Origin: Microbacterium sp. HD4P20
GTDB lineage: Bacteria > Actinomycetota > Actinomycetes > Actinomycetales > Microbacteriaceae
Reading direction: 5' to 3'
DNA length: 64,000 nt
Assembly: GCF_019449275.2 (NCBI RefSeq)
Contig: NZ_JAHZQZ020000017.1
Coordinates: forward strand, 1 to 64,000
Part shown: positions 1,177 through 27,350 of the stretch, in pieces
Layout: each line of letters opens with the position of its first letter
Numbering within the stretch: position 1 is the first letter of the stretch
Notes under the pieces: generated by a model
Database searches by the model: none
Told to the model about the DNA's origin: nothing
The model's input: only the letters and a program-made list of their open reading frames with translations
Position numbers and translations under genes: made by a program

Positions 1177-2184
1177 ATGAGCGACGTGACGATCTTCGCG
1201 CCGTCCCCGACGCTCACGGTGACGGTCGAGGAGCATGGCGGCGAGCCCGACATCCACGTGCACGCCGGCGGCCAGGGCGTCTGGCAGGCACGTATGCTGC
1301 TGCGACTAGGCGCGTCCGTGACGATGTGCTGCACCCTCACCGGCGAAGTGGGAGGGATGCTGCGCCACCTGCTGGAGGACGAGGGCATCGGGGTCGCCGG
1401 GCTGGAGCGCCCGGGAAGGGGCTCTGCCTATGTCCACGACCGTCGCGGCGGCCACCGCAGTGTCATCGCCGAGACGGAGGGCGAGCCGCTGGCCCGACAC
1501 GACCTCGATGAGCTGTACGGCCTGACATTGCGCGAAGGGCTGGAGTCGAAACTCACCATCCTGAGCGGTCCGGCGGGCGACGAGGCCCTGCCCTCCGACA
1601 CGTACCGGCGTCTGGCGGCGGATCTGCGCGAAGGGGGCGCCAAGGTCGTCGTCGACCTCGCCGGCGAGCGGCTCGCCGCCGCCGTGGACGGAGGGGTGGA
1701 CGTGCTCAAGGTGAGTGACGAGGAGCTCATCCGCGGCGGACTCGTCGAGAACGAGTCTGTCGCCGAGATCATGAAGGCCATGCGGACACTGCACCAGCGA
1801 GGGGCGGATGCGGTGATCGTGTCGCGCGCCACTGATCCGTTCCTGCTGCTGGACGCGCAGGGCTTCGCCGAAGTGACGCAGCCTCGCATGGCCGTCGCCG
1901 ACACGCGTGGTGCCGGAGACTCGCTCACGGCAGGGGTCGTCTCCGCGATGGCGCGCGGCGAGCGGCCGCGGGACGCCGTCATCACCGGCGCGGCCGCGGG
2001 GGCCCTGAATGTCACACGTCACGGACTGGGCACGGGCGACGCCGAGGCCATCTCGAAGCTGCGTGAGTCGGTGACGGTCCGGGAGATCATCGACGATTCC
2101 GCGGCGCACATCTCGCAGCCTGTCACCGGCCACGTGAGTCCCGACGGGCTCGCGGCCCTCGCCCGGCCGGAGGACGAACGGTGA
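1177..2184 (+). CDS. PfkB family carbohydrate kinase
   Basis: A ribokinase-fold sugar kinase of 335 aa. Early Gly residues (HAGGQGVWQA) form the sugar-binding GG motif. The second PfkB signature DTRGAGD near residue 242 carries the catalytic-base Asp (about residue 248) and the anion-hole glycines. The pattern is closest to 1-phosphofructokinase/tagatose-6-phosphate kinase-like members, but the substrate cannot be read from the sequence. The stop codon overlaps the GTG of surE by 4 nt, so the two are translationally coupled. A PfkB kinase followed by a nucleotide phosphatase is an unusual pair and may mean that the kinase acts on a nucleoside or a related phosphorylated metabolite. Confidence 0.85.
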   Translation: MSDVTIFAPSPTLTVTVEEHGGEPDIHVHAGGQGVWQARMLLRLGASVTMCCTLTGEVGGMLRHLLEDEGIGVAGLERPGRGSAYVHDRRGGHRSVIAETEGEPLARHDLDELYGLTLREGLESKLTILSGPAGDEALPSDTYRRLAADLREGGAKVVVDLAGERLAAAVDGGVDVLKVSDEELIRGGLVENESVAEIMKAMRTLHQRGADAVIVSRATDPFLLLDAQGFAEVTQPRMAVADTRGAGDSLTAGVVSAMARGERPRDAVITGAAAGALNVTRHGLGTGDAEAISKLRESVTVREIIDDSAAHISQPVTGHVSPDGLAALARPEDER

Positions 2185-2927
2185 CCCGCACGCTCATCAC
2201 GAACGACGACGGCATCGACGCACCGGGCCTGCATTCGCTGGCGCGCACCGCGCGGGACGCAGGGCTCGACGTGACCATTGCCGCGCCCGCGCGTCAGTCC
2301 AGCGGATCGAGCGCGTCGATCATCGCGGCGGAGGAGGACGGGCGCATCGCGATCGAGCGACGCGAGCTTCCCGAGCTCGACGGCGTACCCGCTTTCGCGG
2401 TACGCGGCGGGCCGGGCTTGATCGCGCTGATCGCCGCGCATGGCGCGTTCGGCGAGCCTGCCGAGTTGGTGCTGTCCGGTGTGAACCACGGCGCCAACGT
2501 GGGACGCGCCATCCTGCACTCCGGCACCGTCGGCGCCGCACTGACGGGCGGGCTCAACGGGGCGTGGGGCGCGGCGGTGTCGCTGGATGTCGGCATGAAC
2601 CCGACGGACTTCCACTGGGATGCCGCGGCCTCCGCCGTCATGGACCTGCTGCCGTTCCTGCTCGAGCGCCCCCGCGGGACGGTCATCAACGTCAACGTCC
2701 CGAACGCGGCCGCCAACCAGGGCGTGGTCGAGGCGGCACTGGCCCCCTTCGGAATCGTGCAGACGACGCTCTCGGAGCGCGGCGTCGGCCACATCCGGCT
2801 CGCGGTCGAGGACCTGCCGAGCACGCCCGAGCCGGGAAGCGACGCGGCGCTGCTCGCCGAGGGCTGGGTGACGCTGACGGGCATCGATCCGGTGTCGCAC
2901 GTGCCGCTGGGCTTCGCCACGCACTGA
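2181..2927 (+). CDS. surE: 5'/3'-nucleotidase SurE
   Basis: A 248-aa SurE phosphatase, expected to remove phosphate from nucleoside 5'- and 3'-monophosphates in a divalent-metal-dependent reaction. Metal ligands are visible: Asp9-Asp10 in the N-terminal TNDDGID motif, the Ser of the SSGSSAS loop near residue 40, and Asn102 in SGVNHGANVG. The fold is complete and of normal length. The GTG start overlaps the TGA of the PfkB gene (GTGA), so expression depends on the kinase gene. SurE proteins usually sit near pcm or rpoS in proteobacteria. The kinase partner here is a context I do not know from described systems. Confidence 0.92.
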   Translation: MTRTLITNDDGIDAPGLHSLARTARDAGLDVTIAAPARQSSGSSASIIAAEEDGRIAIERRELPELDGVPAFAVRGGPGLIALIAAHGAFGEPAELVLSGVNHGANVGRAILHSGTVGAALTGGLNGAWGAAVSLDVGMNPTDFHWDAAASAVMDLLPFLLERPRGTVINVNVPNAAANQGVVEAALAPFGIVQTTLSERGVGHIRLAVEDLPSTPEPGSDAALLAEGWVTLTGIDPVSHVPLGFATH

Positions 2928-2958: not shown

Positions 2959-3045
2959 GTGCCAAAACACTGGTCGGTCACGCGACACGCCGGGGACACG
3001 GCATCCGTATCGGCGCGTCGTCGTCACTGACTGGTGTTTTGGCAC
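2959..3045 (-). repeat. Constant-core inverted repeat, copy 1
   Basis: Perfect 12-nt outer arms at 2959-2970 (gtgccaaaacac) and 3034-3045 enclose a core that matches the copy at 27231-27350 when read on the minus strand. The inner stem is formed by 3011-3020 with 2983-2992 (10 pairs, one G-U in the RNA), and the apical part carries CGGATGCCG (2999-3007). It lies between the convergent genes surE and rpsO. The outer arms have a different sequence from copy 2. It could be a structured RNA or a small palindromic mobile element. Confidence 0.75.
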
Positions 3046-3141: not shown

Positions 3142-3411
3142 TTAGCGGCGCAGTCCGAGACGTTCGATCAACGACCGGTAACGGCTGATGTCGATGTCCT
3201 GGAGGTAGCCGAGCAGACGACGGCGCTGACCGACGAGCAGGAACAGCCCACGACGCGAGTGGTGGTCGTGCTTGTGCTCCTTGAGGTGCTCGGTCAGGTC
3301 CTTGATGCGCTGCGTCAGCATCGCGACCTGCACCTCGGGGGATCCGGTGTCACCGGGGTGCGTCGCGTACTCTTCGATGATCGCCTTCTTGACTTCTGCT
3401 TCCAGTGCCAT
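3142..3411 (-). CDS. rpsO: 30S ribosomal protein S15
   Basis: An 89-aa S15, exactly the usual length. It binds the central domain of 16S rRNA (helices 20-22) early in assembly of the 30S platform. The family signature covering [17 protein letters not shown] is present near the centre, and the C terminus ends in the normal basic [13 protein letters not shown] segment. A GAAAGGGGA Shine-Dalgarno sequence lies upstream of the ATG. In many bacteria rpsO precedes pnp, but here it is monocistronic, with its own terminator and then an inverted-repeat element. The roughly 200 nt upstream contain no gene and should hold the promoter. Confidence 0.98.
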
Positions 3412-26446: not shown

Positions 26447-27166
26447 ATGTGCACGGTCGTCATCCGCGTCCCGGCGGCGGCAGACGAGCCCGTCCGCCTG
26501 CTGGCCATCCGCGACGAGGACCCCGCTCGGCCCTGGAACCCCTTCGGGCGCTGGTGGCCCGAGCCGCACGCGGGGATCATCGGCGTGCGGGACGCGCGTG
26601 CCGGCGGCGCGTGGCTCGCGGCGGATCCCGAGACGGGGCGACTCGCCGTACTGCTCAACCGCGCGGATGCCTCGACCCGCCCGGCGTCCGAGCTCGGATC
26701 CCGCGGCGGCATCGTGCTCGAGTCGGTCGCCGGCCGCTCCCCCCACGGCGAGCCCGCGACGCACGGGTTCAACCTCGTGGAGGTGGAGGGGCCGAGAGCG
26801 CGCGTTCTGACCTGGGACGGCGCCACCCTGCGCTCGGTCGATCTCACGCCGGGCACCCACATGATCGCGCACGACGACGTCGATGACCCTGCGACACCGC
26901 GGATCGCCGAGTGGCTGGACGACTTCCGCGCCGCCGAGCCCGCCGATGGCGAACGATGGTGGATGCCGTGGGTCGACGTGCTCGAGAGGTCGGCCGCATT
27001 GGGCAGCACCGATGACCGCGCGATCATCCGCGACAACCGCCCGCACGGCTACCCGACCCTGTCACTCCTCGCGTGCGTGGCGACGGTGTCGCCACACGAC
27101 ATCGACGTGCACTACGGCGAGCTGACCGAGCCCGGCCACTGGGGCGGTGGCCTCGAGCTCGCCTGA
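26447..27166 (+). CDS. NRDE (TANGO2-like) family protein
   Basis: A 239-aa member of the NRDE family. It begins MCTVV, so that Cys2 becomes the N-terminal residue after Met removal, as in Ntn-type hydrolases. The diagnostic NRDE motif is here IRDEDPARPW, with Ile-Arg in place of Asn-Arg, and is followed by the typical GG-WLA (GGAWLAADPETGRLAVLLNR) segment. Eukaryotic TANGO2 has been linked to haem and lipid handling, while bacterial functions are unknown. AGGAG lies 6-7 nt upstream of the ATG. It is divergent from coaBC, with 48 nt between the starts. Confidence 0.85.
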   Translation: MCTVVIRVPAAADEPVRLLAIRDEDPARPWNPFGRWWPEPHAGIIGVRDARAGGAWLAADPETGRLAVLLNRADASTRPASELGSRGGIVLESVAGRSPHGEPATHGFNLVEVEGPRARVLTWDGATLRSVDLTPGTHMIAHDDVDDPATPRIAEWLDDFRAAEPADGERWWMPWVDVLERSAALGSTDDRAIIRDNRPHGYPTLSLLACVATVSPHDIDVHYGELTEPGHWGGGLELA

Positions 27167-27230: not shown

Positions 27231-27350
27231 GCCGGACACAGAATCGGATCCGTAGGAGCGGATGGTCGCCTCGACGCGCCGTCGCCGGATGCCGCAGCGC
27301 GGCGTGTCGCGTGCCCCGTCCGCACCAGCGGATCCGATTCTGTGTGCGGC
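27231..27350 (+). repeat. Constant-core inverted repeat, copy 2
   Basis: 22-nt arms (27231-27252 and 27329-27350, one mismatch) enclose a 76-nt interior. Inside, CGACGCGCCG (27272-27281) pairs with CGGCGTGTCG (27300-27309), and between them lies CGGATGCCG (27286-27294). All three blocks are identical in the element at 2959-3045, whereas the outer arms are unrelated in sequence. It lies between the NRDE gene and the promoter of the LysM-like gene. Confidence 0.8.

Follow-up and report, generated by a model that had tools for sequence, protein, structure and literature searches.

The window analysed here, a stretch of 64,000 nucleotides from Microbacterium sp. HD4P20 (contig NZ_JAHZQZ020000017.1), contains two related palindromes, each standing alone between genes. 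The first, 87 bp long and called copy 1 below, lies between two convergent genes, one SurE-like and the other encoding ribosomal protein S15; the second (copy 2, 120 bp) lies between an ORF that ends at 27166 and an ORF that starts at about 27397. The features at the two places are as follows.

2181..2927, plus strand: SurE-like gene, left of copy 1 and convergent with rpsO, named from its translation
2959..3045, minus strand: copy 1, solo palindrome with A-type arms (TGCCAAAACACCAGTC / GACCAGTGTTTTGGCA)
3034..3045, minus strand: 5' outer arm of copy 1, 12 bp, perfect with 2959-2970
2959..2970, minus strand: 3' outer arm of copy 1
3011..3020, minus strand: constant core block 1 of copy 1, CGACGCGCCG
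2999..3007, minus strand: constant apical block of copy 1, CGGATGCCG
2979..2992, minus strand: constant core block 3 of copy 1, CGGCGTGTCGCGTG
3142..3411, minus strand: rpsO (ribosomal protein S15), right of copy 1, named from its translation
27231..27350, plus strand: copy 2, solo palindrome with B-type arms (ACACAGAATCGGATCCG type)
27236..27252, plus strand: 5' outer arm of copy 2, 17 bp perfect, 21/22 over 27231-27252
27329..27345, plus strand: 3' outer arm of copy 2
27272..27281, plus strand: constant core block 1 of copy 2
27286..27294, plus strand: constant apical block of copy 2, CGGATGCCG
27300..27313, plus strand: constant core block 3 of copy 2

Read on the minus strand from 3045 to 2959, copy 1 has the layout GTGCCAAAACAC...CGACGCGCCG-ATA-CGGATGCCG-TGTCCC-CGGCGTGTCGCGTG...GTGTTTTGGCAC, and both copies can be described as a constant core of the pattern CGACACGCCG..CGGATGCCG..CGGCGTGTCG enclosed in subfamily-specific outer arms. 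An earlier sequence-only reading of the window had claimed three identical blocks in the two copies, with the first and third paired to each other and with unrelated outer stems of 12 bp in copy 1 and 22 bp in copy 2. The three blocks are indeed exact and in the same order; the combination occurs exactly twice in the genome, against no occurrence of its reversed control. Blocks 1 and 3 pair over 10 bp with one G.T in copy 1, and the same blocks are present in copy 2. The 12-bp stem of copy 1 is perfect (3034-3045 with 2959-2970), and the longer stem of copy 2 needs a small correction: its arms (27231-27252 and 27329-27350) pair at 21 of 22 positions, with one mismatch, and 17 of these pairs are uninterrupted (27236-27252 with 27329-27345). 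The 14-mer CGGCGTGTCGCGTG is found at exactly two places in the 4.03-Mb genome, which are the two copies, and taken alone it is unremarkable, because the reversed control pattern occurs three times. The unusual feature is the ordered combination of blocks, rather than the 14-mer. The hexamer GGATGC, which forms the centre of the apical block, is also the most over-represented hexamer of the window (137 occurrences, 95.3 expected; 109 within predicted genes and 28 outside).

A slightly shortened three-block core with similar spacing is found by exact match in six further Microbacterium genomes (7 of 366 with HD4P20 itself), M. hibisci, M. oleivorans, M. salsuginis and M. hominis being the named ones, and these exact-core copies fold as long hairpins, each with outer arms of its own. 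A covariance model built from eight copies (the core model) matches 252 of the 366 Microbacterium genomes at E <= 0.01, with at most 14 candidates scored per genome; this is an upper reading, because the model also matches coding sequence. It finds 15 places in the HD4P20 genome at E < 0.002, two of which (L087 and L089) look like chance matches inside genes, while a third (L078) overlaps the end of a called gene. Six of 85 inspected matches were flagged as lying inside called genes: L087, L089 and L092 are chance-like, and L109 (6957), L061 and L078 are strong elements overlapping a called gene. Solo palindromes favour gene ends: of 77 intergenic matches, related copies retained, 26 have convergent neighbours, 44 co-directional and 7 divergent ones, as placed by a home-made gene caller that did not call the gene preceding copy 2, which ends at 27166.

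The outer arms fall into subfamilies, which include A (GCGAAAACACCAGTC), B (CAGAATCGGATCCG), GATGCAATGGATCC, GCACAACTTCGGAG and others. Within 35 A-type elements, picked by their left arm, differences between arms are compensated at several pairs, for example C-G 18 with G-C 15, and G-C 17 with A-T 15 (counts of sequences, not of events). Mismatches in these elements are G.T in 28 and A.C in 32 cases in the arms, and 15 and 31 in the core; since G.T does not exceed A.C, the arms covary as DNA pairs and RNA is not indicated. Rfam covariance models likewise gave no match in the window at gathering scores. Of the possibilities raised by the sequence-only reading, a structured RNA is not supported, and a palindrome family under selection, whose core is constant and whose private arms are compensated, is borne out by the many diverged copies that the covariance model finds across Microbacterium genomes, with arms that remain complementary.

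Two simple origins for the palindromes were considered and rejected. Insertion into pre-existing terminator stems is not favoured, given that complementarity outside the A-type elements is near chance (7 of 34 at >=8, 11% expected). Copy 1 has no DNA match in the plasmid or phage collections, and a plasmid or phage origin was accordingly set aside.

Several members of the family occur in clusters, and in seven such clusters the intervening gene or gene remnant belongs to one protein family. The sequence-only reading missed this partner because the gene lies outside the window. The protein combines an AbiEi_4 domain at its N-terminus with a DUF559 domain (PF04480) at its C-terminus; there is also a weak match to REase_MTES_1575 (PF18741) and, in one case, to Vsr. 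The DUF559 gathering score is exceeded by the nuclease half of all five proteins in one set and of four of six in another (L357 and L369 being the exceptions). A search with six proteins (alignment A3) at 1e-20 found members of the family, counting lower-scoring relatives, in 353 of the 366 Microbacterium genomes. Four distant matches to the nuclease protein (29-32% identity) were found on plasmids of other actinobacteria, and one pattern-based scan of viral contigs produced no relative.

We examined 110 of the first 114 listed gene loci in the genus, omitting G329 and G254, which are near contig ends, and also G293:C14 and G277:C1; weaker opposite-strand duplicates of core matches were dropped by hand from the flank counts. 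At >=24 bits, 137 core matches are no more than 450 bp from the gene, 10 are more distant and one falls inside the gene. At >=20 bits, a core palindrome is present on at least one side in 81 of the 110 loci and on both sides in 51, and 29 loci have no core match within 450 bp on either side. An element is found upstream of the gene in 68 loci and downstream in 64. Among 29 surE/rpsO control loci there is a single core match, the orthologue of copy 1. Among 34 scored pairs of flanking palindromes, the two members point the same way in 25 and in opposite directions in 9. Single linkage of neighbouring genes divides the 110 loci into eight syntenic groups (68, 16, 9, 7, 5, 3, 1 and 1 loci); with only eight groups, and 68 loci in one of them, the gene rarely moves and the loci are not independent of each other. 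Given these groups, the idea of a freely hopping cassette was dropped.

Of 133 flanking elements, 113 have outer arms that are complementary to each other; with swapped partners the share is 15%. In most cases the palindromes to the left and right of a gene have identical or closely similar arms, and groups of genes differ from each other in this respect; the score for left and right arms is 10.7 when both come from one locus (42 loci) and 4.8 when they come from different loci (71 loci). Comparison of arms with proteins was limited to the 113 arms with score >= 8, which come from 71 of the 110 loci. Similarity of arms correlates with similarity of the N-terminal part (0.38), the middle part (0.49) and the nuclease part (0.25) of the protein, each value at the floor of 300 permutations among loci that are related by descent. 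The partial rank correlation with arms is 0.44 for the middle AbiEi part given the nuclease and -0.06 for the nuclease given the middle part, and within the largest syntenic group (site 1, 43 loci with arms) the values are 0.52 and -0.05, with arm scores of 10.3 within and 4.6 between loci. Between species the arms change on the two sides in concert, also where the loci occupy one chromosomal site. As judged from these sequence correlations, over the whole locus set arm similarity goes with the AbiEi-like half more closely than with the nuclease half. A second syntenic group (12 loci; arm scores 9.2 within and 7.9 between) departs from this pattern: there the nuclease half tracks the arms better (partial correlation 0.60, against -0.02 for the AbiEi middle part).

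An AlphaFold model of the 275-residue HD4P20 protein, made with 46 of 109 usable proteins (alignment A4), has a mean pLDDT of 89. Its residues 10-170 superpose on the AbiEi antitoxin 6y8q (Z 8.2, rmsd 3.9, 154 aligned residues), and residues 175-274 on the catalytic domain of the homing endonuclease I-Bth0305I (3r3p; Z 9.9, rmsd 2.7, 96 aligned); the nuclease half also resembles the putative endonuclease 3hrl (Z 10.0) and Vsr (1vsr, Z 8.4). Foldseek gives E < 0.001 for two AbiEi-type entries only, the matches of the nuclease half being weak (0.01-0.03), and PADLOC AbiEi profiles match the N-terminal part weakly. Several acidic and histidine positions are invariant across the 46 sequences. On the strength of the model, the protein looks like an AbiEi-like DNA-binding half fused to a nuclease half of Vsr/EDxHD type. 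AbiEi antitoxins are described as binding inverted repeats in their own promoter (PMC7319586), I-Bth0305I as dimerizing on a target of nearly 60 bp (PMC3943268), and MTES_1575 has been termed a Vsr-family REase (PMC3710099).

Relatives of HD4P20 (G000) allow the fate of individual elements to be followed; these are the sister species M. salsuginis (G147) and two other Microbacterium genomes, G031 and G364. The sequence-only reading had regarded presence or absence between close strains as a sign of mobility, and palindromes do differ at corresponding sites of G000, G147 and G364. Copy 1 is present at the corresponding site of G147, the other 28 surE/rpsO control loci having no core-model match; the orthologous place of copy 2 in G147 is occupied as well (36.6 bits), and the core model finds nothing at the places in G364 that correspond to the two copies. 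One solo of G147 is absent from G000, and the order of neighbouring genes is the same.

At the site represented by locus L180 (G147:C3), G364 has no element, G000 has one solo A-type palindrome, G147 has the gene with three palindromes on one side and one on the other, and in G031 the gene is there with other arms. In G147 the A-type nuclease gene (L180:1501-2391) is interrupted by one in-frame stop near its middle; the G031 gene has none. The arms of G147 and G031 at this shared site are AAAACACCAGTC and AAAGTCACCTCGG, respectively, and their proteins are 70% identical in the N-terminal part, 63% in the middle and 89% in the nuclease; the difference reflects either a joint change of the two flanks and the DNA-binding half or the replacement of one cassette by another. 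The same region of G147 (L180:3401-3464, contig C3) also contains a palindromic repeat of a different, unrelated kind, CCGGTTCGTTCGTCACA...TGTGACGAACGAACCG, which has many matches in G000 and G147 and none within the window. At another site (L176, contig C19 of G000), an intact gene with B-type arms is found in G000, and G147 and G031 have 60 and 53 bp, respectively, between the matched flanks and no element. Loss at the latter site is likelier than gain in G000, because 68 loci share it, and the empty sites could be deletions.

DNA searches connect the solos of the window to these genes. The G000 gene locus matches 15 B-type places elsewhere in G000, copy 2 among them, and the G147 locus matches at least seven A-type places in G000, including copy 1. 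In G000 itself, no gene match among those listed is better than that of the C19 gene, at 67%. The genome also has four lower-scoring relatives of the gene (L378, L379, L380 and L381), none with A-type arms, and only L380 among them has a core match of >=20 bits (20.5 bits); L378 has a GC-rich palindrome (shared-arm score 10) and L379 has none (score 2). L380 (G000:C19) and L381 (C17) are each flanked left and right by clear private palindromes, with shared-arm scores of 16 and 12. Copy 2, then, has arms of the type that flanks the intact C19 gene of G000. For copy 1, neither G147 nor G000 offers an intact partner, because the G147 gene has a stop and no A-type gene was seen in G000; it is an orphan, and at the site of the matching gene G000 keeps a lone palindrome. 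Elsewhere, a tandem B-type pair in G000 (G000:C15:37911-38200) and a tandem A-type triple in G147 (G147:C4:608118-608540) occupy one intergenic place, which suggests that the place is a preferred one.

Pairs of private palindromes are also found beyond the genus. A generic hairpin z-score test gave no separation in other genera (27 gene loci had 8 hairpins close to the gene, and 28 control loci had 24 at any position); it was replaced by a test for a private arm common to both sides of the gene, chosen after some of the locus sequences had been inspected. By the latter test, an arm is shared in 74 of 107 Microbacterium loci, compared to 22% with swapped flanks, in 13 of 27 loci from other genera of Microbacteriaceae, compared to 7% swapped (29 loci were fetched, of which two belong to Microbacterium), and in none of 28 control loci. 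A core-model match near the gene is rare in these other genera; some loci (L329 and L319) keep the Microbacterium core, and others (L337 and L338) do not. A search of the class matched 30 of 266 genomes, 11 of them from the genus or family. Outside the family, 18 of 19 loci were used, L373 being omitted at a contig end, and seven of the 18 have shared arms, compared to 3% swapped, most clearly L369, L357 and L372. The pairs outside the genus are mostly without the core, so what the loci generally have in common is a pair of palindromes with a private arm, and the version with the constant core belongs mainly to Microbacterium.

The reading that we prefer, with a probability of about 0.6, is that the element at 2959-3045 is a solo member of a dispersed family of DNA palindromes that belongs with an AbiEi/Vsr-like nuclease gene located elsewhere in the genome or in its relatives. 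We infer that the nuclease binds, cuts and promotes copying of its palindromes. Judging from the sequence correlations and the model, the AbiEi-like half, probably dimeric, would bind the two private arms, with the nuclease half acting at the constant core; repair or replication across the cut would then lead to copying, conversion, or excision/deletion of palindromes. A mostly resident, inherited gene would in this way maintain a population of cognate palindromes, which spread and turn over, and the recognition sequence would drift along with the DNA-binding half. A solo would remain after recombination between flanking palindromes of like orientation, and this would explain the single G000 palindrome at the L180 site. 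The broader proposal, that Actinomycetes harbor a new class of system in which a largely resident AbiEi-Vsr nuclease maintains its own palindromes, reading their private arms with its DNA-binding half and, in Microbacterium, acting on the core with its nuclease half, while the recognition sequence keeps changing, has in our estimate an even chance of being right. No account of such a palindrome-nuclease system was found in the literature searched, most subscription journals being outside the search.

Part of the evidence could be read in terms of gene regulation, the AbiEi-nuclease being a transcription factor or autoregulator, the flanking palindromes its operators, the solos operators or decoys, and the nuclease activity irrelevant to spread. 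The promoter-binding habit of AbiEi antitoxins and the presence of an upstream element in 68 of 110 loci speak for this view, but downstream elements are nearly as frequent, solos prefer gene ends (26 convergent as against 7 divergent placements), and tandem arrays and a large constant core within the arms are unlike operators; we regard a regulon as unlikely. Still less probable is a conventional transposon, that is, a palindrome-gene-palindrome cassette moving as a unit. The gene does occur in eight syntenic groups, and at the C19 site it is present in G000 and missing from G147 and G031; however, with 68 of 110 loci at one site, missing genes are more likely to be losses. Besides, 34 A-type elements searched at lengths 2-9 have no target-site duplication (only length 3 exceeds expectation, 2 versus 1.15), and the flanks are same-oriented, complete palindromes, rather than simple terminal inverted repeats.

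It is very improbable that the palindromes built up near genes as bidirectional terminators of the ordinary kind or as hairpins that protect mRNA. They are strong hairpins, mostly between convergent or co-directional genes, their location chiefly at 3' ends of genes would suit terminators, and the bases of A-type arms are A-rich/T-rich and contain TTTT, but the B-type, GATGCAAT and GCACAACTT arms have no run of four T; a terminator needs neither a constant core, nor an arm common to both sides of a gene, nor a correlation of arm with protein, and there is no excess of G.T over A.C. An equally small probability attaches to a solitary defence or restriction module, whose nuclease would attack incoming DNA and be titrated or inhibited by the chromosomal palindromes. 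The likeness of the nuclease half to Vsr and restriction-type enzymes, together with the weak PADLOC matches, would fit such a module, which, however, leaves unexplained the paired private arms and the differences at both flanks.

Compared with known systems, the palindromes and nuclease most resemble REP sequences and RAYTs, in which the gene of a DNA-cutting enzyme is described as lying between two palindromes, with cognate copies dispersed in intergenic regions and coevolution of the two (PMC2817692). The common points are the palindrome-flanked nuclease gene (core on both sides in 51 of 110 loci), the dispersed cognates, and the tracking of protein by arm. However, the predicted enzyme is AbiEi-like and Vsr/EDxHD-like, not an IS200/IS605-type (HUH) tyrosine transposase; the copies beside the gene point the same way in most cases (25 of 34 pairs), whereas RAYTs have inverted REPs; and the window palindromes, at 87 and 120 bp, hold a constant core inside private arms. 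The palindrome-nuclease system is not a member of REP/RAYT: its logic appears similar, and its enzyme and flank orientation differ. With the EDxHD homing endonuclease I-Bth0305I the protein shares the predicted catalytic fold of residues 175-274, but its DNA-binding half is AbiEi-like, and its gene sits between two complete palindromes and splits no target site. With AbiE type IV toxin-antitoxin systems it shares the modelled AbiEi fold of the N-terminal and middle parts, but here this fold is fused to a nuclease, and the commonest neighbours, as read from neighbour clusters, look like ordinary chromosomal genes. The nuclease half matches DUF559 and, weakly, REase_MTES_1575, and the accessible portions of the literature searched do not link proteins of either family to palindromes. 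MITEs, too, are short non-coding palindromes in many copies, but they differ from the A-type elements, which have no target-site duplication.

If the preferred reading is true, DUF559 proteins, which are labelled 'unknown function' in Pfam and are found in most Microbacterium genomes, gain a partner and a candidate role, and the lifestyle of palindrome plus dedicated nuclease would have arisen around an enzyme that is not related to RAYT transposases. Specificity for DNA could also be compared with protein sequence across hundreds of genomes: because each nuclease has candidate sites flanking its gene, the probable recognition sequence can be read from the genome, and changes of specificity in AbiEi-type DNA-binding domains are therefore directly testable.

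The L176 site has some further repeats of its own. The nuclease cassette of G000 is bordered there by low-complexity tandem runs, with GACCC repeats on the left and CCGCACAGCGCA repeats on the right, and between the same flanks in G364 (L302, G364:C40) several copies of a short palindrome, TTGGCGAGTCGCCAA, are found where G000 has the nuclease gene.
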